Of a stretch of 40,393 bases of DNA, positions 30,645-40,372 are shown in pieces. The stretch comes from Microbacteriaceae bacterium 3FA27C10 (lineage in GTDB: Bacteria; Actinomycetota; Actinomycetes; Actinomycetales; Microbacteriaceae), in contig SCNI01000033.1 in the NCBI GenBank assembly GCA_005502775.1, positions 1 to 40,393 of the forward strand, given 5' to 3'. The notes under the pieces are model-generated. The model had not been told where the DNA came from. It saw nothing but the letters and a program-made list of their open reading frames with translations, and did not search any database. The translations under genes were made by a program, and so were the position numbers. How positions within the stretch are numbered: the stretch's first letter is position 1; each line of letters opens with the position of its first letter.

Positions 30645-33161
30645 CTACTTCACCTTCTTCACCGTGTACGAGAAGGCGTCGTTGCGCATCACCTCGCCCG
30701 AGGCCTTCACCACGGTGATGGTGTGTGCGCCGTCCTTCAGCCCGGTCGCACTGAACAGCTGCTGCCCCGTGAGCCGGGCATCCGCATGCGTGTCGACCGT
30801 CTCGCGGAAGGCGCCGTCGAGATAGACGTTCACCGCACCCTGGTCGGGAGCCTTGGCGCCCACCCAGGAGACACCCGTGCCCGTGAAGGCGAAGGTGGCG
30901 AAGTCTCCGTCACTGGTGGTGGCGTGCACGTCGCCGTGCAGGTCGCCGCGGAACGCGAACTCGAGGGTGGCCGAGCCGATCGGCTGCGCGGCGAGGTAGG
31001 AGGCTTTCAGCGTCACCGTGCTGTCGGTGAGCTCGTAGTCCGTTCCCTGCACCAGCGCGCTTCCGCCGGCAGTCACGCCCACGAACTCGCTCGGGGTGCG
31101 GAGCAGACCCACCGTCACGTCGGCCGGAGCCGCCTTGTCGAAGGTCGCCGAGCCGGAGTCGAGCAGGCTCTCGACGGTCACGTTCAGCCGGTCGAGCAGC
31201 ATGTACGAACCCGACTTCTTCACCACGCGCAGCGTGTGCGACGCGTTCGCCAGGCCGGATGCGCTGTACACCGTCTGCTGCACGCCGCGCCCGGCACTCG
31301 GATCGAGGTGCGCATCCACCGTCTGCACCAGGGCGCCGTCGAGGTAGACCTCCGCTTCGCCCTGCGATTCGTGCGTCTCTGTGACCACATCGATGCCGGT
31401 GCCCTGGAAGGTGTACTGGAAGGCGTCGCCGTTCTTCTCCGTGTAGTGCACGTCGTCGTCGTAGTCGCCGAGGCCGCGGCCTGTGCTGTGGCTCCAGGTG
31501 CCGGAGTAGACGATGCCCGTGTCGTCGTCGTTCAGCACGATCGACCGGCCGTCGGTGGGAACTGCGGGCTCTCCCTCACCAGTCGCGGAGTCGATCGTCG
31601 CCACCGTGAACGGCTGGCTCGCCGGGGCGACCTGGCGGCCGTCGTTGCGCGTCCAGTCGCCGTCATAGGACACCCGCAAGGAGTCGTCGTTCACGGCCAC
31701 CTGGGCGTTCTTCTGCGGGGTCACCTTGAGCAGACGGGCACCGTGGATCGGGATGTCGGTCCCGGTGAACGAGGAGTCGAAGGTGCCGAGCTTCTTTCCC
31801 GCCCACAGGTCGCGCACCTCGGCGGCGCCGGTGAGGCCGATGTCCGCCCAGCTCGCCGTGACGTCGGCATCGGTGCGTCCCAGGTTGAACAGGGCCACCG
31901 TGTAGGTGCCGTCGGGGTTCTGTGAGTACCAGACCTGGTGGTTGGTGGCGGTCGACACGGGCTGCGCGGGCACGCCCGCCTGCTGCACCGCGATGACGTC
32001 GCGGTTGGTGAGCAGGCTGAGACCGTAGTCGTCGAGCTGCGTCATGTCGTTCCCGATGTACATCGGGGCCGCCGAGATGGCCCAGAGGGTGGTGGCGGTG
32101 CGCCGCTCGTCCTTCGTCAGGCCGTCCATCTTGCCGTTGCCCACGTTGAGGGAATCGAGGTCGTTCCAGCCGCCGGGGCCGCCGTGTCGCCACCACTCGG
32201 CCATCCGCGGGAAGAGGCGGTCGATGTTGGCCCACTGGGTGAGCGCATCGCTGCCGCAATAGCACTCGACGTCCCAGTCGACCCGCCAGCCGTCGGCCAT
32301 CTCCTTCCAGTAGTCGGCGTACTGGATGTCGAGCGCCCAGGAGAGTTCGAACCAGATGCCGCGCGCCTTCAGCGCCGTCGACCAGGCAGCCACGTTGTCG
32401 CGGGCATCCAGCGACCCGTCGCTGATGCCGGAGCCGGGCGTGACGCTGTCGAACTTCACGAAGTCCACACCCCAGGACTTCAGCTGGTCGGCGACGGAGT
32501 CGATGTACTTCTGCGCGCACGGGTTCGAGAAGTCGATGGCGTAGCCGATCTTCCAGTAGTCCGCCTGCTGCAGCGGCTGTTTCACGATGTCGTGCGTGTT
32601 GCACTCCGGGGCACCGAAGACGGGGAGGGCCGCCTCGTAGACCTCGGGGCCCATGCCCGGGATGAAGTAGAGCCCGAACTTCTGGCCGTTGCCGTGCACG
32701 TGGTCGATCACCGTCTGCAGGCCGTCGGGGTAGAGCGTGGTGCTGGGTGTCGGGCGGCCGTAGTCGTCGACGCCGCCGTTCCAGCCGGCGTCGACGTTGA
32801 TGTGGTCGTAGCCGAAGGGCTGCAGCTTCTCGTGCATCGCATCCGACTGGGCGATGATGTTGCCGGCCGTGATCCATTGGCCGTCGTTGTAGACCTGCTG
32901 GCTGAAGCTGCTCCAGCCCTGATAGGGCTTCACCGCCAGGTCGTCGGGGTCGAGCGCGGGCGCCGGGGTCGGCGCGGTCTGCGGGGGTGCAGACGTCGTC
33001 TCGACCGGGGACGGCGCGGCGGCCGTCGTCTCGACCGGGGACGGGGTGGCGGCCGGCGTCGCGGCACCGGCCGCACCGGCGGCCCCGAGGGCGAGGGCCG
33101 CGGCAGCCGCCATGGCGAGCGTCACCGCCGCCCCGCGGGTGCTCCTGAGTAGATTCGTCAT
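30645..33161 (-). CDS. Secreted modular GH27 glycosidase (alpha-galactosidase or beta-L-arabinopyranosidase type)
   Basis: The product has 838 residues. A signal peptide (about 1-34) and a Pro/Thr-rich spacer with a short DNA-level repeat precede a GH27 barrel at about 78-450. The nucleophile is probably Asp238 (DFVKFD), the acid/base an Asp in GWRVDWDVE, and GPGGWNDLDSL is typical of the family. At the substrate-binding strand the family's paired Asp (DDGW) is D124-A125 here (NVDAGW), and the first motif reads GWSSF rather than GWNSW. The C-terminal part holds two similar galactose-binding-like beta domains (VYLDGALVQTVDAH and VYLDGAFRETVDTH) flanking a CBM_X2-like module. No membrane anchor is seen. 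GAGGA precedes the ATG. It is probably part of the same regulon through the palindrome at 33226. Confidence 0.9.
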   Translation of the reverse strand: MTNLLRSTRGAAVTLAMAAAAALALGAAGAAGAATPAATPSPVETTAAAPSPVETTSAPPQTAPTPAPALDPDDLAVKPYQGWSSFSQQVYNDGQWITAGNIIAQSDAMHEKLQPFGYDHINVDAGWNGGVDDYGRPTPSTTLYPDGLQTVIDHVHGNGQKFGLYFIPGMGPEVYEAALPVFGAPECNTHDIVKQPLQQADYWKIGYAIDFSNPCAQKYIDSVADQLKSWGVDFVKFDSVTPGSGISDGSLDARDNVAAWSTALKARGIWFELSWALDIQYADYWKEMADGWRVDWDVECYCGSDALTQWANIDRLFPRMAEWWRHGGPGGWNDLDSLNVGNGKMDGLTKDERRTATTLWAISAAPMYIGNDMTQLDDYGLSLLTNRDVIAVQQAGVPAQPVSTATNHQVWYSQNPDGTYTVALFNLGRTDADVTASWADIGLTGAAEVRDLWAGKKLGTFDSSFTGTDIPIHGARLLKVTPQKNAQVAVNDDSLRVSYDGDWTRNDGRQVAPASQPFTVATIDSATGEGEPAVPTDGRSIVLNDDDTGIVYSGTWSHSTGRGLGDYDDDVHYTEKNGDAFQYTFQGTGIDVVTETHESQGEAEVYLDGALVQTVDAHLDPSAGRGVQQTVYSASGLANASHTLRVVKKSGSYMLLDRLNVTVESLLDSGSATFDKAAPADVTVGLLRTPSEFVGVTAGGSALVQGTDYELTDSTVTLKASYLAAQPIGSATLEFAFRGDLHGDVHATTSDGDFATFAFTGTGVSWVGAKAPDQGAVNVYLDGAFRETVDTHADARLTGQQLFSATGLKDGAHTITVVKASGEVMRNDAFSYTVKKVK
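32995..33054. repeat. Two tandem 30-bp repeats in the GH27 linker
   Basis: Bases 32995-33024 and 33025-33054 match at 28 of 30 positions and encode two copies of a Pro/Ser/Thr-rich decapeptide (PSPVETT core) between the signal peptide and the catalytic domain. Such linkers vary in copy number by slippage. Confidence 0.75.
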
Positions 33162-33909: not shown

Positions 33910-34484
33910 CCGAGGGCCCCGATCTCGAGTCCCGCCGGCCGGACGGCCCCGGATCCTCCCGGCGCGACGGCGTACCGGAGCGCCGCCGCGTGCTTCGCGG
34001 GAGCCCCGGAGCGGAGGGCGAGCGCCCATCGCTCGAGGGGCGTCACGATCGCCGCGAGCTCACACCCCGCATCGGGGCCGGCCGGCACCCATGGGCGGGC
34101 CGGCTGGGGCGCCGGCCGGCCGAGCGCCCACACCCAGGCATCCTGGAACGACCGCTGTTCGCTGCCCGGCTCAGACGGCACGAGCATCCACGCGGCCGAC
34201 TCCGGGAAGCGCCGTCGGTCGAGCCGCTCGAGGGTGGAGGGCAGCGGAGTGACGAGCACGACGCCGAGCCGCGATCCGTGGGCTCGGGGTCGCGTCCCGC
34301 GCCGGCCGAGCCGGGGCACGGCGTCGAAGAGCGCTCGCGCGTGCACCGAGGGAAGCGCCGCGCCGCTGTCGGCGATCAGCGCTCCGTGCGCATGGTCGAG
34401 CAGCCAGAGGGTCGCGGAGAGGTAGGGGTCGATCCCCGGTTCGGGCAGCTCCACCCGCCAGCCGGCGCTCACCCGCTCGGTCAT
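33906..34484 (-). CDS. Unrecognised soluble protein coupled to the PASTA kinase gene
   Basis: The product has 192 residues, lacking a signal peptide and membrane helices. It reads as a mixed alpha/beta protein (LWLLDHAHGALIADSGAALP, SRLGVVLVTPLPSTLERLDRR, SAAWMLVPSEPGSEQRSFQD) rich in Trp, Pro and Arg. No known domain is recognised. Its ATG overlaps the kinase stop codon (ATGA) and its own stop overlaps the next start, so expression is tied to both neighbours. It might act with the kinase or with the downstream protein. A longer open frame runs upstream in the same phase, but that part is a shadow of the kinase gene. Confidence 0.7.
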   Translation of the reverse strand: MTERVSAGWRVELPEPGIDPYLSATLWLLDHAHGALIADSGAALPSVHARALFDAVPRLGRRGTRPRAHGSRLGVVLVTPLPSTLERLDRRRFPESAAWMLVPSEPGSEQRSFQDAWVWALGRPAPQPARPWVPAGPDAGCELAAIVTPLERWALALRSGAPAKHAAALRYAVAPGGSGAVRPAGLEIGALG

Positions 34485-36298
34485 GGTCTCGCTCCCGCCG
34501 TGGGCGGCGCCGTCGCCGAGGTCGGTGCGGGGGTCGGGGTGCTCGACGGCGGGTCGGCGAGCAGGAGGGCGACCGTGACTCCGACGCGGAGCACCGCCCC
34601 CTGCCCGGGCTGGGTGCCGAGCACGGTCGCCGACGGCGAGCTGCTTCCGACGGGATCCACCCGGAAGCCGGCCGACTCGAGGAGCGCGACCGCGGCGCCG
34701 ACGCTCGCTCCCTGCACGGCGGGGACGGAGTTGGTCCCGGATGCCACGGTCACGTCGACCACGGAGCCGACAGCCACGACCTCCCCGGGTTGCGGGCTCT
34801 GGGCCAGGAGGCGATCCGCCTCCTCGGCCGACTCGGCGCGGTTCGCCGCGCCCAGAGTCAGGCCCGCTGCACGCAGCGCCGTCTCCGCGTCGCCCAGGCT
34901 GCCGTGCAGTGTGGGCACGGCCACCGTGGCCGCCGTCGAGGCCGAGGGCGGCGCGACTCCTGCGGGACCGGTCGGCGCTCCCGGCTCGGCAGCCGGGGTC
35001 GAGGGCGGGGGCACCGCGGCCTCGGTGGGCTGGGAGGACATGGGCGTCGACGTCACCGACGCGACAGACCCCGGCTCTGCGGATGCCGAGACGACGCCCC
35101 ACACGGCGAGCCCCGCGATCGCCACGACGGTCAGCAGGGCCGCGATGCCGCTGGCGGTCGCGGTCTGCTGCAGCGACGGCTCTCGCGCCGGCGGCCGTCC
35201 CCCCTGCGCCGGGGTCGGCGTGAGGTAGTGGAGCGCGGCCGGGCGGGCCGAGGGATGGATGCGCGTCGCCACGGCCTCGCCGGGCGCCGCCTGCGGCGGC
35301 AGCGCGCCGGGCCGCGGCCGGTCGGCGACCGCCAGCGCGGCCCGGAGCGCGAGCCGGAACTCGGCGGCGTCGCGGTAGCGGTTCGACGCCTCCTTCGTCA
35401 TCGCGCGCGTCACGACCGCGTCCAGCGCCCTCGCCGACGGCGCGAGCACCGAGGGCACCGGCGGCGGAGCCGAGACGTGGGCCTCGAGCACGTTGGCCGC
35501 GCTGGTGCGCGGATACGGCGGTCGCCCGGTGAGCAGGAAGTACAGCACGGCGCCGCACTGGTACACGTCGCCGGATGCCCGCACCGGCTCTCCGAGGGCC
35601 TGCTCGGGAGACATGTAGTGGGCGTTCCCGATCACCCCTTCGACCTCTCGCGCCGAGGAACCCGCCGCCGCACCGCCGCCGGTCCCGCCCTCCTGCTCCG
35701 TGCGCAGCACGTCCCGTCCGGTCGCGGCCGTGCCGGCGAGCCCGGCGAGCCCGAAATCGACGAGCCGCACCTGATCGGCGCTCACGGGCGCCTGCGCCTC
35801 CGTTCCCCGGCGCAGCAGCACGTTCGCGGGCGAGATGTCGCGGTGCACCGTTCCGGCCGAGTGGGCGAGCTGGAGGCCGGCCAGCAGCCCGTCCAGAACG
35901 GCGGCGGCCTGCCCCACCGGGAGCGGTCCCGCGTCGGCCACGAGTTCGGCCAGACTCGGTCCGTCCACCAGCTCGAGGGCGATCCACGCCATCGTGACGC
36001 CCCCGGCCTCGTGCAGACCGTAGCCGTGCACCGCGGCGATGTTCGGATGCCGCAGTCCCGCGAACTGGCGGGCCTCCCGCAGGAAGGCCTGGCGGGAGGC
36101 CTCGTCGGCGCACAGATGCGGATGCAGGATCTTGACGGCGACCCGCGTGCCCTCCGAGGCGCCCTCCGCGCCCGGCCCGAGGTCGTCTGCGGCGAACACC
36201 GAGGCCGATCCGCCCACGCCGAGGAGCTCGCCGAGCCGATAGCGGTCGCCGAGGAGGGTGCCACGCCGGTGGCCGGCGCTCTGCTGGTCGTCGCGCAT
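34481..36298 (-). CDS. Membrane Ser/Thr protein kinase with two PASTA domains
   Basis: The product has 605 residues. An N-terminal kinase domain (about 19-290) has the Gly-rich loop LGVGGSASVF, the ATP-binding Lys56 (VAVKIL), the catalytic Asp154, the metal-binding motif DFG (VDFGLAG) and the activation segment ending in SPEQ. The catalytic loop is HRDISPAN rather than HRDxKPxN, with Ser156 replacing the usual Lys. A Gly/Ala-rich insertion lies in the activation region. A single membrane helix (about 375-398) is followed by a Pro/Ser/Thr-rich spacer and two extracellular PASTA domains, which bind peptidoglycan fragments in related PknB/StkP kinases. There is also a proline-rich tail. It lies six bases after the PstB-like gene and overlaps the next gene by ATGA. 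Confidence 0.93.
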   Translation of the reverse strand: MRDDQQSAGHRRGTLLGDRYRLGELLGVGGSASVFAADDLGPGAEGASEGTRVAVKILHPHLCADEASRQAFLREARQFAGLRHPNIAAVHGYGLHEAGGVTMAWIALELVDGPSLAELVADAGPLPVGQAAAVLDGLLAGLQLAHSAGTVHRDISPANVLLRRGTEAQAPVSADQVRLVDFGLAGLAGTAATGRDVLRTEQEGGTGGGAAAGSSAREVEGVIGNAHYMSPEQALGEPVRASGDVYQCGAVLYFLLTGRPPYPRTSAANVLEAHVSAPPPVPSVLAPSARALDAVVTRAMTKEASNRYRDAAEFRLALRAALAVADRPRPGALPPQAAPGEAVATRIHPSARPAALHYLTPTPAQGGRPPAREPSLQQTATASGIAALLTVVAIAGLAVWGVVSASAEPGSVASVTSTPMSSQPTEAAVPPPSTPAAEPGAPTGPAGVAPPSASTAATVAVPTLHGSLGDAETALRAAGLTLGAANRAESAEEADRLLAQSPQPGEVVAVGSVVDVTVASGTNSVPAVQGASVGAAVALLESAGFRVDPVGSSSPSATVLGTQPGQGAVLRVGVTVALLLADPPSSTPTPAPTSATAPPTAGARP

Positions 36299-36304
36299 CA
36301 GCGC

Positions 36305-37330
36305 CTACCCGAATCGGCCGTTCACGTAGTCGTAGGTGCGCTCGTCCTGGGGTTCGGAGAACATCGCATCCGTGTCTCCGAACTCCACGATGCCGCCGGG
36401 CGTGCCCTGCGAGGCGAGGAAGAACGCGCACTGCTGCGAGACGCGCTGCGCCTGCTGCATGTTGTGGGTCACGATGACGATCGTCACCTCGTGCTGCAGC
36501 TCCCCCATGGTCTCCTCGATCACCCGGGTCGAGGTGGGGTCGAGGGCGGAGCAGGGCTCGTCCATCAGCAGGACCTTCGGTTTCACCGCGAGCGAGCGCG
36601 CGATGCAGAGGCGCTGCTGCTGACCGCCGGAGAGGCCGCCGCCGGGCTGTCGCAGGCGGTCGCGCACCTCCTTCCAGAGGCCGGCGCTCACGAGGCTCCG
36701 CTCGACGATCTCGTCCCTCTGGTCGCGCGAGGCCCGGATGCCGGTGAGCTTCAGCCCGGCTACGACGTTGTCGTAGATCGACATCGCCGGGAAGGGGTTG
36801 GGCTTCTGGAACACCATGCCGATGTGACGGCGCGCATCGGTGAGCTTGCGGGATCGGTCGTAGATGTCGGCGCCGTCGAGCATCACCTCCCCCGCGAGAG
36901 ACGCGGAGGGCACGAGTTCGTGCATACGGTTCAGGATGCGCAGGAAGGTCGACTTGCCACAGCCCGATGGCCCGATCAGCGCGGTCACCTGACCGGCCGG
37001 CATCGTGAGCGACACCCGTTCGAGCACCTTGTGGTCGCCGAACCACGCCGAGACCTCCCGGGCATCCAAGGAGGAGAGCTCGCCGTCGGAGACCGGGCGC
37101 GCGGCGGCGTAGGCCGCGGAGATCTCGTCATCGGCGTCGCGGAGCGTCTCGGCCGCAGGCCGCGGAGCCGGGCCGAACACGCGCGGCAGAATGTCGGTCA
37201 CCTCCTCGCTGGGCGGCGCGGCGTGCAACGGCGTGCGGATGGCGGCGAGCTCGGCGGCATCCGCCGGCGCGAGGTGCACGCCGGTGATGTCGTCGTACGA
37301 CGGCTGGGGCTGGGTGGATTCGGAGGTCAT
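36305..37330 (-). CDS. PstB-type phosphate ABC transporter ATPase with N-terminal extension
   Basis: The product has 341 residues. From about residue 84 it is a complete PstB-type ABC ATPase: Walker [10 protein letters not shown] with Lys126, the Q-loop region [11 protein letters not shown] typical of PstB, the signature [15 protein letters not shown], Walker [12 protein letters not shown] and the switch His in VTHNMQQA. Usual PstB proteins have about 255-270 residues; the first 80 or so here are an acidic, Pro/Ala-rich extension with no match I recognise. No PstS, PstC or PstA gene lies in the window; neighbours are a sortase-like gene 29 bases upstream and the PASTA kinase six bases downstream. 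The ATG at 37330 gives the extension; a shorter start near residue 80 has no good candidate. Permease partners may lie past the right edge. Confidence 0.92.
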
Positions 37331-37359
37331 GCTGTCCTTGAGGCGAGGGGCGAACGGTG

Positions 37360-38400
37360 TCAGAGGAGGTTGGGGAGGGCGTTCATCACGATGTCCGCGC
37401 AGGTGACCCCCAGCACGAGCAGCACGGGGATGCCGATCAGCCAGGTCTGCCATCGGCCCCAGGCGGTCCAGAGCCACCACAGGGTGACCCCGGCGGCGGC
37501 GAAGAACACGAGGGCGAAGAACGCGGCCGACCAGGATGCGCCGTCCTGCCCCATCGCCCGCTCAGCCGGCGGCAGTGCCTGGTAGGCCATCACCTTCGAG
37601 GGGGTCGCCTGAACGGCCGAGGTGAGCTCGGCGTCGACATGCAGGGCCCCGGAGGGGAACAGCGCGAGCCCGTCGGCGGTGATCAGCTCGAGCCGGCCGG
37701 CCTTGGCCTTGAGCGCATCCGGCAGCGGGTCGCCGGCGCGACGCAGCTGCAGCACCTGGAAGGTGCTGACACCCTGGCCCGTGGTGACGGTGATCTCGTC
37801 GCCCGGCTTGAGCTGGGCGAGCGAACCGAAGGGTCCGCCGTAGGTGGTCTGCCGGCCGAGGATGACACTGGTTCCCGCCTGCCCCGGCATCACGGAGTCG
37901 CGGCGGTGCCCGGCCCCGGAGCGCAGCACGTCGGAGGTCGTGCCCTCGCTCACCACTTCGTTGATTCCGACCGCCGGAATCTGCAGCATCGCCACCGGGG
38001 TGCCGAGCGGCACCATCTCCTGGTTCAGATCGAGCTGGCCGACGGGGGTCTCCGCCTTGGCGAGGGAGACGCGCAAGGCCTGGTAGTCGATGGTCTGAGC
38101 CCGGTGATGCTGGAAGGTCGAGAAGAGCGCGACGTGGGCCACGAAACCGAGCAGCAGCATGGAGAGCGTGAGGAGGGCGGCCCCCACCCACCAGCGGAGG
38201 TCGCGCGGAGCGAGCGGGCGGGAGGGCGCGGGCAGCTTCGTGCGATCGAAGGGGGCGCGCGGGCCGCCGGGGCGGCGGCCGGAACCGCCTGCGCGCGGGT
38301 TCGGCACCGAGCCGGGCCGGGCCTTCCGGCGTGGGCGCGTCGGCTTGGTGAGCACCTGCGTGGTCGCTGTGTCGGCCGTGGGATTCCGCTCGTCGGTCAC
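37360..38400 (-). CDS. Sortase-fold membrane protein lacking catalytic residues (pseudo-sortase)
   Basis: The product has 346 residues. A basic Pro-rich cytoplasmic tail precedes a membrane helix at about 70-95; residues 128-265 follow the sortase pattern closely ([60 protein letters not shown]). Two more helices follow at about 285-340, which ordinary class E sortases lack. The catalytic His (usually GHR) is Arg183, the catalytic Cys (usually TC) is Ala242, and the Arg before the last strand is Ala252. It is therefore predicted to be inactive as a transpeptidase but may still bind substrates. The GTG at 38400 overlaps the stop of the upstream surface-protein gene (GTGA). Confidence 0.82.
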
Positions 38401-39179
38401 GGGGCCGACGCTCCCGGAGTCGCCGCCGGCACCCGCATGACGCGCACGATCTGCCAGAACACCAGCACCGCCACGACGATCGCGAGTCCGCCGATCACCC
38501 ACCAGAGCCAGGGCGGCACGTCGAGTCCCCCGGTGGCGGCGGCGGCGTTGCTCGCGCCCACGAGAACCGTGGCGAGAGAGACCTTCTTGCACCAGCCGGT
38601 GAACTGCACGGTGTGGCTGCCCACGGCGGTGCTCTCGGCGACCGGGAACACGGCCTGCACCTGGCCGCCGGCATCGGCCGTGAAGGTGCCGATGAGCGAC
38701 GGGTCGGAGAAGAGCACGAGCTGCACCTGCTCGCCGGCCTCGAATCCGGTGGCGGTGGCGGTGACCTGCTCCCCCGCCAGGTAGAGCTGCTTGTCGGTGG
38801 TGGCCGTGCCGCCGGAGGAGGCGGGAGCCGACGGCACCGCGGGCTCGGCCGGAACGCAGGCGGGAGCATCCGGAGCGGTCCTGCCGCCGTTTCCGCGCCC
38901 GCTTCCGCCGCCGCTCGGCCGGGAGGCCGGAGCGACGGCGGCCGGAGCCGGAGCCGTGCTGGAGGAGGTCGGCGTGGGAGTGGCCGTCGGTGTGGGAGTC
39001 GGCGATGCGGTGCGGCTCGGGATGGTCACGGTCACGCCCGTGCCGCTGCCGTCCGGGCCGGTGTCGTCGGCCGCGGCGGCGGTCATGCCGAGGCCGATCG
39101 ACGCCAGGGCGAAGCCGGCACCGAAGAGAGCGCCCACGAGTCGCCGGGTACGGCGCTGCCTGAGTGTCGTCGCGGTCAT
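38397..39179 (-). CDS. Surface protein with Ig-like pre-anchor domain and C-terminal helix
   Basis: The product has 260 residues: a basic N terminus and signal peptide (cleavage near AAAADD, about residue 38), then a Thr/Pro- and Ser/Ala-rich stalk. Residues of about 130-205 form one Ig-like domain (YLAGEQVTATATGFEAGEQV, HTVQFTGWC) that resembles the pre-anchor domain of the GH43 protein at 6010. Two Cys flank this domain. A membrane helix (PPWLWWVIGGLAIVVAVLVF) and short tail follow. Before the helix the sequence is AAAATGGLD, at best a degenerate sorting signal. It would be held at the outer face of the membrane. Its ATG overlaps the DUF916 stop (ATGA) and its stop overlaps the pseudo-sortase start. 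Confidence 0.82.
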   Translation of the reverse strand: MTATTLRQRRTRRLVGALFGAGFALASIGLGMTAAAADDTGPDGSGTGVTVTIPSRTASPTPTPTATPTPTSSSTAPAPAAVAPASRPSGGGSGRGNGGRTAPDAPACVPAEPAVPSAPASSGGTATTDKQLYLAGEQVTATATGFEAGEQVQLVLFSDPSLIGTFTADAGGQVQAVFPVAESTAVGSHTVQFTGWCKKVSLATVLVGASNAAAATGGLDVPPWLWWVIGGLAIVVAVLVFWQIVRVMRVPAATPGASAP

Positions 39180-40372
39180 CGGCCCGCCCCGCTTCCGGTG
39201 AGCGTGCGGGGGCCTGCGGGTCCGTCGCGCTCGTCGTCCCCCGCAGGCTCGCCGAGCGTCTCCGCCCGGATCTGCTCGGCGTAGTCGGCCAGGTCGTCGG
39301 CGAGCCGCTGGCGCGACCGTCGCCGCCACCACAGGGCGCCCCAGACGATCGCCACGACGAGCAGCACGAGCACGAGCAGGCTCCACGGCACGGCCCAGGC
39401 GGTGGCGGATGCGGTCACCGGCGCGGCGAGGGCATCCCCCTGCGCGGCGCCGTCACCGGGCCCCGGCGTCACCGTGACCTCGGAGAAGAGCAGGAAGAGG
39501 GGCGGGACGCCGGGGAAGGCCGCGGTGACGTGCGTGGTGCCGCCGGGCACGAGGTTCGACACCGGCGGTGTCGACGCGCTGCCGAAGTCGATGCCGAAGG
39601 GTCCCGTGAGGTGCACGCTCGGCGCGGCCGAGAGCCGCACGTTGCCGGTGTTGGTGAGGTCGAAGCCCACCGTGCCCGTGCCGGTGCCCACGGGGTCGAC
39701 CGTGCCGTCGAATCCGGAGACCAGGCCGCTGATCCCCACGCTCGGTGCGAGCGCGCCGTCGACGCGCAGGTAGATGCGGGTGCCCACGCGCTGGGCGACG
39801 TTGACCGCCGAGCCGGTGGAATCGGTGGCGGTGCTCTGGAACGACGCCACGATGCCCGCGGCGTGGTCGCCCGGCGTGGCGTCGTGCGGCACGGTGAGCG
39901 TGAAGGGCAGGTCGGCACGCGTGCCCGGCTCGAGGGTGATGGAGACGCCGAGACCCGAGGTGCACTGCGCCTCGGCGGCGTCGTTCGTGTCGGGGCAGGA
40001 TGCCGGCCCGGAGTTGACACTGGTCCAGGCGCCGGCGTCGGTGGAGGCCTGGTCGGCGCCGACGAGGGTGAACGATCCGGTGGTGTAGTCGGTGGTGGCA
40101 TCCGCCCCGTAGACCCGGAAAGTGGCCGGCGCGCTCGAGTAGTTGGAGACCGAGACCCAGTCGCTGACGGTGCTGCCGGGAGCGACCGCGTAGTCGAACT
40201 CGGTGCGGCCGTCGGGCCCCTCCGGGGTGGAGGGCTGCACGCTCCAGGTCACCTCCGTGGCCGGATCGGCGTGCGCCGGCGCCGGCAGGGCGAGCGCGGC
40301 GAGAACCAGGCCGGCGGTCAGGGCGGCGAGCCCGGCCGGCCGGAGCCACGGGGTGCGGAGGGGGATGCTCAT
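39176..40372 (-). CDS. DUF916-type (WxL-interacting-like) membrane-anchored surface protein
   Basis: The product has 398 residues. A signal peptide (cleavage after PAPAHA, about residue 35) leads into a DUF916/WxLIP-like domain: VTWSVQPSTPEGPDGRTEFD, VAPGSTVSDWVSVSN, then LEPGTRADLPFTLTVP and DATPGDHAAGIVASF. A second Ig-like beta domain follows (VGFDLTNTGNVRLSAAP). A membrane helix (SLLVLVLLVVAIVWGALWW) and an acidic cytoplasmic tail of about 45 residues close the protein. In Firmicutes, related proteins bind WxL proteins and peptidoglycan; the partner here is unknown. The ATG lies only 21 bases from the window edge with a weak GAAAG before it, so an upstream gene in the same operon is likely but unseen. 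Confidence 0.85.
   Translation of the reverse strand: MSIPLRTPWLRPAGLAALTAGLVLAALALPAPAHADPATEVTWSVQPSTPEGPDGRTEFDYAVAPGSTVSDWVSVSNYSSAPATFRVYGADATTDYTTGSFTLVGADQASTDAGAWTSVNSGPASCPDTNDAAEAQCTSGLGVSITLEPGTRADLPFTLTVPHDATPGDHAAGIVASFQSTATDSTGSAVNVAQRVGTRIYLRVDGALAPSVGISGLVSGFDGTVDPVGTGTGTVGFDLTNTGNVRLSAAPSVHLTGPFGIDFGSASTPPVSNLVPGGTTHVTAAFPGVPPLFLLFSEVTVTPGPGDGAAQGDALAAPVTASATAWAVPWSLLVLVLLVVAIVWGALWWRRRSRQRLADDLADYAEQIRAETLGEPAGDDERDGPAGPRTLTGSGAGR

Follow-up and report, generated by a model that had tools for sequence, protein, structure and literature searches.

The window, the whole 40,393-nucleotide stretch analysed here, is a complete contig (C42) of Microbacteriaceae bacterium 3FA27C10. 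It carries on its minus strand the gene of a pseudoenzyme, a membrane protein that has a sortase fold and is predicted to contain three membrane helices (hereafter the pseudosortase; Table 1). The likely GTG start of this gene overlaps the stop codon of the gene before it. On the other side, the pstB open reading frame opens at 37480 but contains an ATG at 37333, downstream of the end of the pseudosortase gene. Inspection by eye found the Walker A motif, the LSGGQ signature and the H-loop of the window PstB intact. The same protein has an N-terminal extension of ~90 residues ahead of the ATPase domain. No Pfam family over its cut-off was found for the small surface protein C05b (38397..39182). 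Elsewhere in the window, positions 30645-33161 encode a large secreted protein that looks, by eye, alpha-galactosidase-like with added modules.

Table 1. Coordinates of the pseudosortase gene, its parts and its neighbours in the window
Feature	Coordinates	Strand	Details
PASTA Ser/Thr kinase	34481..36298	-	directly downstream of pstB; optional neighbour, 20/92 well-flanked loci
PstB-type ATPase	36305..37333	-	TIGR00972 343.9 bits in genome search (cut-off 343.2); whole ORF 342.5, just below
Pseudosortase	37360..38400	-	346 aa, likely GTG start at 38400
N-terminal membrane helix of pseudosortase	38059..38202	-	residues 67-114 of 346 (core 2-49); DSSP of AlphaFold model
Sortase-fold domain	37606..38025	-	residues about 126-265 (core columns 61-200)
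Arg183 codon, catalytic His site	37852..37854	-	alignment of 150 homologues: Arg 146, Lys 4
Ala242 codon, catalytic Cys site	37675..37677	-	Cys in 0/149 homologues with a letter at the site
Ala252 codon, catalytic Arg site	37645..37647	-	Arg/Lys in 0/148 homologues with a letter at the site
C-terminal helix 1	37459..37542	-	residues 287-314 (core 222-249); model
C-terminal helix 2	37378..37455	-	residues 316-341 (core 251-276); model; conserved LPNL end after it
Small surface protein C05b, C-terminal TM	38397..39182	-	ORF opens 39386, likely ATG 39182
DUF916/WxLIP-like protein, C-terminal TM	39176..40372	-	PF06030 E 7.4e-06, 26.4 bits, just under cut-off 27.3

Because the window is a whole contig, the upstream part of the operon is missing from it. 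Another contig of the same genome (C41) ends, in the right direction, with genes in the order pstC-pstA-PstS-giant PstS-GSDTTQ-WxL-like, and contigs C98 and C57 carry the two halves of a second extended operon. The pseudosortase of that second operon (L047:12222-13061, minus strand, contig C57) is 40% identical to the window protein and is accompanied by a separate pstB and a separate set of extended Pst genes. Exact sequence overlap was found neither between the ends of C41 and C42 nor between those of C98 and C57, so both joins rest on gene order. In all, the genome encodes two pseudosortases and two extended PstCA pairs, alongside a single canonical PstSCAB set; no pseudosortase was found in the 13 kb examined around the canonical set on contig C35.

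Fold and active site of the pseudosortase

The Pfam Sortase profile (PF04203) matched the window protein at 56.8 bits against a cut-off of 26.6, covering only profile positions 1-83 of 125, and Pfam identified no domain other than Sortase. The NCBIfam model for class E sortases (NF033747) gave 79.5 bits, which is below its cut-off of 160 and does not place the protein in class E. In a phmmer search against the PDB, sortases top the list, with 5go6/5go5 as the best matches (8.4e-12). AlphaFold modelled the 281-aa core from alignment A2 (75 rows) with a pLDDT of 88.1 and a pTM of 0.84, and DSSP assigned to this model eight strands of at least three residues, one N-terminal helix and two C-terminal helices. 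All 50 hits listed (of 229) in a Foldseek search with the core model are sortases, including 4d70 (E 3.9e-11, TMt 0.76) and sortase E 5go5 (E 5.3e-10, TMt 0.73). The sortase fold proposed in the preliminary description is borne out by the beta-barrel in these structural comparisons, and the profile match and the barrel together place the protein in the sortase superfamily (PF04203 fold).

The same description had read Arg183, Ala242 and Ala252 in place of the catalytic His, Cys and Arg, and the 346-aa reading confirms all three. The protein lacks the residues that define a sortase enzyme, and a pseudosortase of this composition cannot, judging from its sequence, catalyse transpeptidation. Class E sortases (e.g., Streptomyces sortase E, PDB 5go5, 5cuw) cleave an LAXTG/LPXTG-type signal. 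They share with the pseudosortase both the fold and the scaffold motif GPGH...PGQ.G...G.RxxYGxPF; the pseudosortase, in contrast, is without the catalytic His, Cys and Arg, has R/K at the His site, reads HRRD where sortases mostly have an HYPG-like sequence, and is encoded within a Pst operon.

Of 199 genomes from the same bacterial family, 45 contain matches at E ≤ 2.2e-42, 50 in total (hand count from a list sorted by E-value that extends far beyond this level). Presence is patchy; among the four genomes of the window's genus in this set, its own genome included, two carry the gene. In alignment A1, which comprises 31 of the 50 matches, the cores are 280-283 aa long and 39-74% identical to the window protein across genera, and core Arg118 (equivalent to Arg183) is invariant in all 31. 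A scan of genome contigs with two DNA patterns yielded 473 candidate stretches, from which the best 80 were kept; these include loci from Cryobacterium, Compostimonas, Microbacterium, Promicromonospora, Streptomyces and Streptacidiphilus, as well as Jiangella, Phytohabitans, Nakamurella and Bifidobacteriaceae MAGs. Since one of the DNA patterns contains the His-site Arg, these 80 loci are a biased sample with respect to that site. A profile search across the class gave matches at E ≤ 1e-15 in 161 of 394 genomes. Among the matches fetched, the strong full-length ones are pseudosortases and the weak partial ones are sortases, except for a small number of incomplete pseudosortases lying at the ends of contigs.

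We aligned 168 distinct sequences to the family profile, which was built from pseudosortases themselves; 150 scored at least 122 bits (146 of them at least 200), and 18 scored at most 104. In the 150 pseudosortases, the His site is Arg in 146 and Lys in four, the Cys site is Ala in 125 (Ser 12, Gly 10, Thr 1, Val 1, gap 1), and the Arg site is mostly Val (82) or Ala (27), followed by Ile 16, Leu 11, Thr 9, Ser 2, Glu 1 and gap 2. The 77 pseudosortases that came from genome profile searches, and are free of the DNA-pattern bias, have Arg in 73 and Lys in four. No cysteine occurs between core columns 61 and 200, inserts included, in any of the 150. By comparison, all 18 class E-type sortases have the His and a Cys following it (14 by pattern, four by eye). 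Every His-bearing sequence among the 168 scored ≤104 bits on the family profile; the best such sequence found phylum-wide is L232, at 135.9. A clean bit-score gap between pseudosortases and sortases therefore held within the 168 sequences and fails across the phylum, L232 having kept the triad.

Residues around the former active site are among the most conserved in pseudosortases, and positions that are near-constant in these proteins and not in sortases include core Arg45, Arg102 and the GQG turn at 143-145. The relaxed constraint of a pseudogene is not what we found, as invariant positions and a near-constant length are maintained over genera and families. Selection for a non-enzymatic role, as suggested in the preliminary description, is strongly supported by the wide conservation of Arg/Ala/Ala-type substitutions in the alignment of homologues; close homologues retaining His-Cys-Arg, which it had named as the contrary outcome, did not appear among the sequences compared.

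The beta7-beta8 loop of the model has four residues, and the spacing from the His site to the Cys site has a median of 59 in pseudosortases (range 53-64), compared with 68 in 12 of the 14 sortases measured; on these two grounds, the canonical groove may be reduced. As proof of a lost groove, the short spacing is weakened by L232, in which the triad is intact and the spacing is 60. The two C-terminal helices had been put forward as a difference from class E sortases, which proved wrong: two homologues that keep His, Cys and Arg, L232 (= L254) and L251 (= L255), have the helices as well, and we rejected them as a family mark.

The extended Pst operon and its PstS-type proteins

Across genomes, the pseudosortase gene lies in an operon with the order pstC-pstA-PstS-giant PstS-like protein-(surface proteins)-pseudosortase-pstB. 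We ran operon profiles on 119 loci (20 from family genomes, 80 from the contig scan and 19 from class genomes) of which 113 have pstB on the same strand as the pseudosortase and 98 have the giant PstS-like gene. Loci were considered well flanked if they extended 7.5 kb or more upstream and 1.5 kb or more downstream; these number 92 and represent 87 distinct genes, five having been fetched twice. Same-strand genes in the well-flanked loci are those for the giant PstS-like protein (92), PstB (91), PstS (88) and the secreted GSDTTQ-type protein (86), followed by pstA (73) and pstC (68), before which the stretches examined often end, and then by the genes for the WxL-like protein (67), the DUF916 protein (56) and the kinase (20). 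Under strict score limits, the counts are 91 for giant PstS, 91 for pstB and 86 for PstS. The sole well-flanked locus without a same-strand pstB is L182; pst genes lie on the strand opposite to the pseudosortase in L182/G332 and L256/G598. Deep-branching loci (L164-L181) mostly read pstC-pstA-PstS-giant PstS-pseudosortase-GSDTTQ, with pstB at either end.

Co-directional pstC, pstA, pstB and PstS genes identify this arrangement as a Pst operon; in the window's genome, pstB is on the window itself, and gene order links it to the others on contig C41. The guess that the protein is a transporter-linked scaffold was thus a good one as to the transporter. Among 394 class genomes, 53 carry a pseudosortase (counted at ≥111 bits), 53 carry a giant PstS and 49 carry both (Fisher 7e-53). 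In seven of the eight mismatches the contig breaks off close to where the absent gene would lie; the remaining one is L182, where the giant-PstS match is weak (both by eye). Capture of surface proteins is a plausible role for the pseudosortase; however, the two flanking surface proteins named earlier as natural partners are not its most constant neighbours, as DUF916 genes occur in 56 and WxL-like genes in 67 of the 92 loci, compared with 92 of 92 for the giant PstS-like gene.

Compared with PstSCAB, the extended operon has a PstA over the cut-off (TIGR00974, 203.1 vs. 193.45; L036), a PstS just under it (TIGR00975, 202.3 of 205; L036) and, in the window, a PstB at its TIGR00972 cut-off. It differs in adding the giant PstS-like protein, the pseudosortase and the GSDTTQ-type protein, in having a C-terminally anchored PstS, and in the optional WxL-like and DUF916 proteins. 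Loci for WxL and DUF916 (WxLIP) surface proteins occur in Firmicutes. Two proteins of the extended operon resemble these through weak matches to PF13731 and PF06030, both below cut-off, but here they are joined to a Pst operon and are missing from part of the operons. The secreted "GSDTTQDV" proteins (L217:16103-17140 and relatives) contained no Pfam family besides Ig-like repeats in the two representatives scanned.

The giant PstS-like protein is ~850 aa long and has no Pfam family. Its AlphaFold model (L057 protein; pLDDT 83, pTM 0.84) matches E. coli PstS from pstSCAB (E 9.5e-12, TMt 0.79), which predicts a PstS fold. From homology together with this predicted fold, the operon would import phosphate.

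A C-terminal transmembrane helix is present in 84 of 91 operon PstS proteins and 91 of 97 giant PstS proteins, whereas 91 of 93 GSDTTQ-type proteins have none; the canonical PstS of the window's genome has a lipoprotein-like start and no C-terminal transmembrane helix. A loose LPxTG/LAxTG pattern occurs in nine of the 91 PstS tails and nine of the 97 giant PstS tails. We searched the first 45 of 73 non-redundant PstS tails for motifs against six shuffles and identified V-x-[AG]-x-P-V-[STE] at 15.3 bits, compared with 8.1-8.9 bits in the shuffled tails, a control that leaves the kinship among PstS tails in place. Of the 45 tails, 40 have the first V, 43 the A/G, 44 the P, 29 the second V and 31 the S/T/E; the motif starts 11-26 residues ahead of the transmembrane core in 44 tails, and one tail was misplaced. 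The motif is degenerate in several deep-branching operons, and the two operon PstS tails of the window's genome read VVVNAVPQSL and AVSSPFTL. In giant PstS tails (first 45 of 78), the best motif scored 9.46, hardly above the 7.95-8.43 of shuffled tails, and was rejected.

Possible role and origin of the pseudosortase

We propose, with a probability of about 0.6, that the pseudosortase serves an enlarged phosphate importer of the Pst type as a membrane subunit without catalytic activity and most likely docks tethered PstS proteins. The importer would consist of PstC, PstA, PstB, a PstS and the giant PstS-like protein, with the pseudosortase added. Co-occurrence and operon conservation suggest an association in which the pseudosortase helices would sit beside the PstC/PstA permease, and the extracytoplasmic sortase domain would hold the C-terminally membrane-anchored PstS proteins there, perhaps by gripping V-x-[AG]-x-P-V-[STE] on the outer side of the PstS anchor, close to it. 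The PstS motif would then occupy the place that a sorting signal has in a sortase substrate. More tentatively, a sortase and its sorting signal may have been turned from covalent anchoring into reversible docking, with the dead domain reading an uncleaved juxtamembrane motif and holding PstS at the permease; we consider this the less probable part of the proposal. Since giant PstS is the most constant partner, it may be the main contact of the pseudosortase, instead of or besides the PstS motif. Alternatively, the motif could contact PstC/PstA or the membrane. Points against the docking proposal are the groove that may be reduced (not decisive, given the spacing in L232), the degenerate PstS motif of several deep branches, the near lack of a motif in giant PstS tails and the opposite-strand pst genes of L182/G332 and L256/G598.

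Other explanations account for parts of these data. The pseudosortase might be an assembly or quality-control factor, a transient chaperone that orients or retains secreted PstS, WxL-like and DUF916 proteins during export and forms no lasting subunit. WxL-like or DUF916 surface genes precede it in 15 of 20 family loci, and its nearest relatives are secretion-linked enzymes; we nonetheless regard such a factor as rather unlikely, given that both surface genes are less constant than the giant PstS-like gene and pstB, and that in the deep branches L164-L182 the pseudosortase gene lies directly 3' of the giant PstS gene. Less probable again is a sensor or gate, in which the sortase domain would sense PstS loading and signal to or gate the importer, possibly with the adjacent kinase. 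The predicted three-helix topology, the adjoining ABC ATPase gene and the kinase gene next door in the window are consistent with it, but a kinase occurs in few of the well-flanked loci, and beyond the N-terminal helix the protein comprises only the sortase domain, the one domain that Pfam finds, and two helices.

That the protein is still an enzyme, acting through other residues such as Arg183 or the retained His165, is very improbable. The conservation around the former active site would fit, but the domain has no cysteine in 150 of 150 sequences, and the nucleophile site varies among A/S/G/T/V and the Arg site among V/A/I/L/T/S/E. The retained His is also found in 18 of 18 sortases compared and so is no new catalytic residue. 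A decayed, functionless sortase copy, which the loss of three catalytic residues might suggest, is scarcely credible: the frame is open, the 31 aligned cores hold their length and their His-site Arg at 39-74% identity to the window protein across genera, and the place in the operon is conserved. We rejected decay as refuted by this conservation.

In a tree of 88 pseudosortases and 18 sortases (97 columns, His column left out), the pseudosortases form one clade with an SH-aLRT of 99.6; a wider tree of 33 pseudosortases and 39 sortases (127 columns, no His column) also recovered one pseudosortase clade (93/87), with a bootstrap that had not settled. A phylum-wide search of 296 genomes identified pseudosortases outside the class (L226, L227, L229 and L230), whereas L228 is a gene already in the set. 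Basal to the other pseudosortases is L231 (= L253), which has Arg at the His site, Ser at the Cys site, the Arg retained and two C-terminal helices, and which lies between a PstS-like gene and pstC-pstA-pstB-pstS. No pstC, pstA or PstS genes were found in the 18-kb stretches that hold the triad-keeping L232 and L251. Because the intermediate L231 is in a Pst operon and the active-type two-helix sortases are outside Pst operons, the membrane topology probably predates the other changes; His and Cys would have been lost as the gene moved into the Pst operon, and the Arg would have gone last, an order that draws on few sequences. A divergent ABC ATPase gene adjoins these two class E-like sortase genes (L254:8874-9722 and L255:8783-9502) on the opposite strand, and one also occurs near the sortases of L238, L243, L246 and L248.

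In the titles and abstract openings covered by our literature search, we found no prior description of a pseudosortase or sortase-fold protein in a Pst operon. The component families are known; what appears to be new is the way they are combined and the conservation of a dead sortase. Pseudoenzymes often turn into receptors or scaffolds. This one is widespread in many Actinobacteria, including Streptomyces and Micromonosporaceae, and appears fixed in the operon of one of the most thoroughly studied nutrient importers. Sortase-profile matches in such genomes include many that cannot be sortases. The analysis predicts an added Pst membrane subunit together with a short PstS partner motif, and it suggests an unrecognised means of keeping binding proteins at their transporter. 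If reversible docking is true, it would represent a new way of tethering binding proteins to ABC importers and would give the sortase fold a new role.
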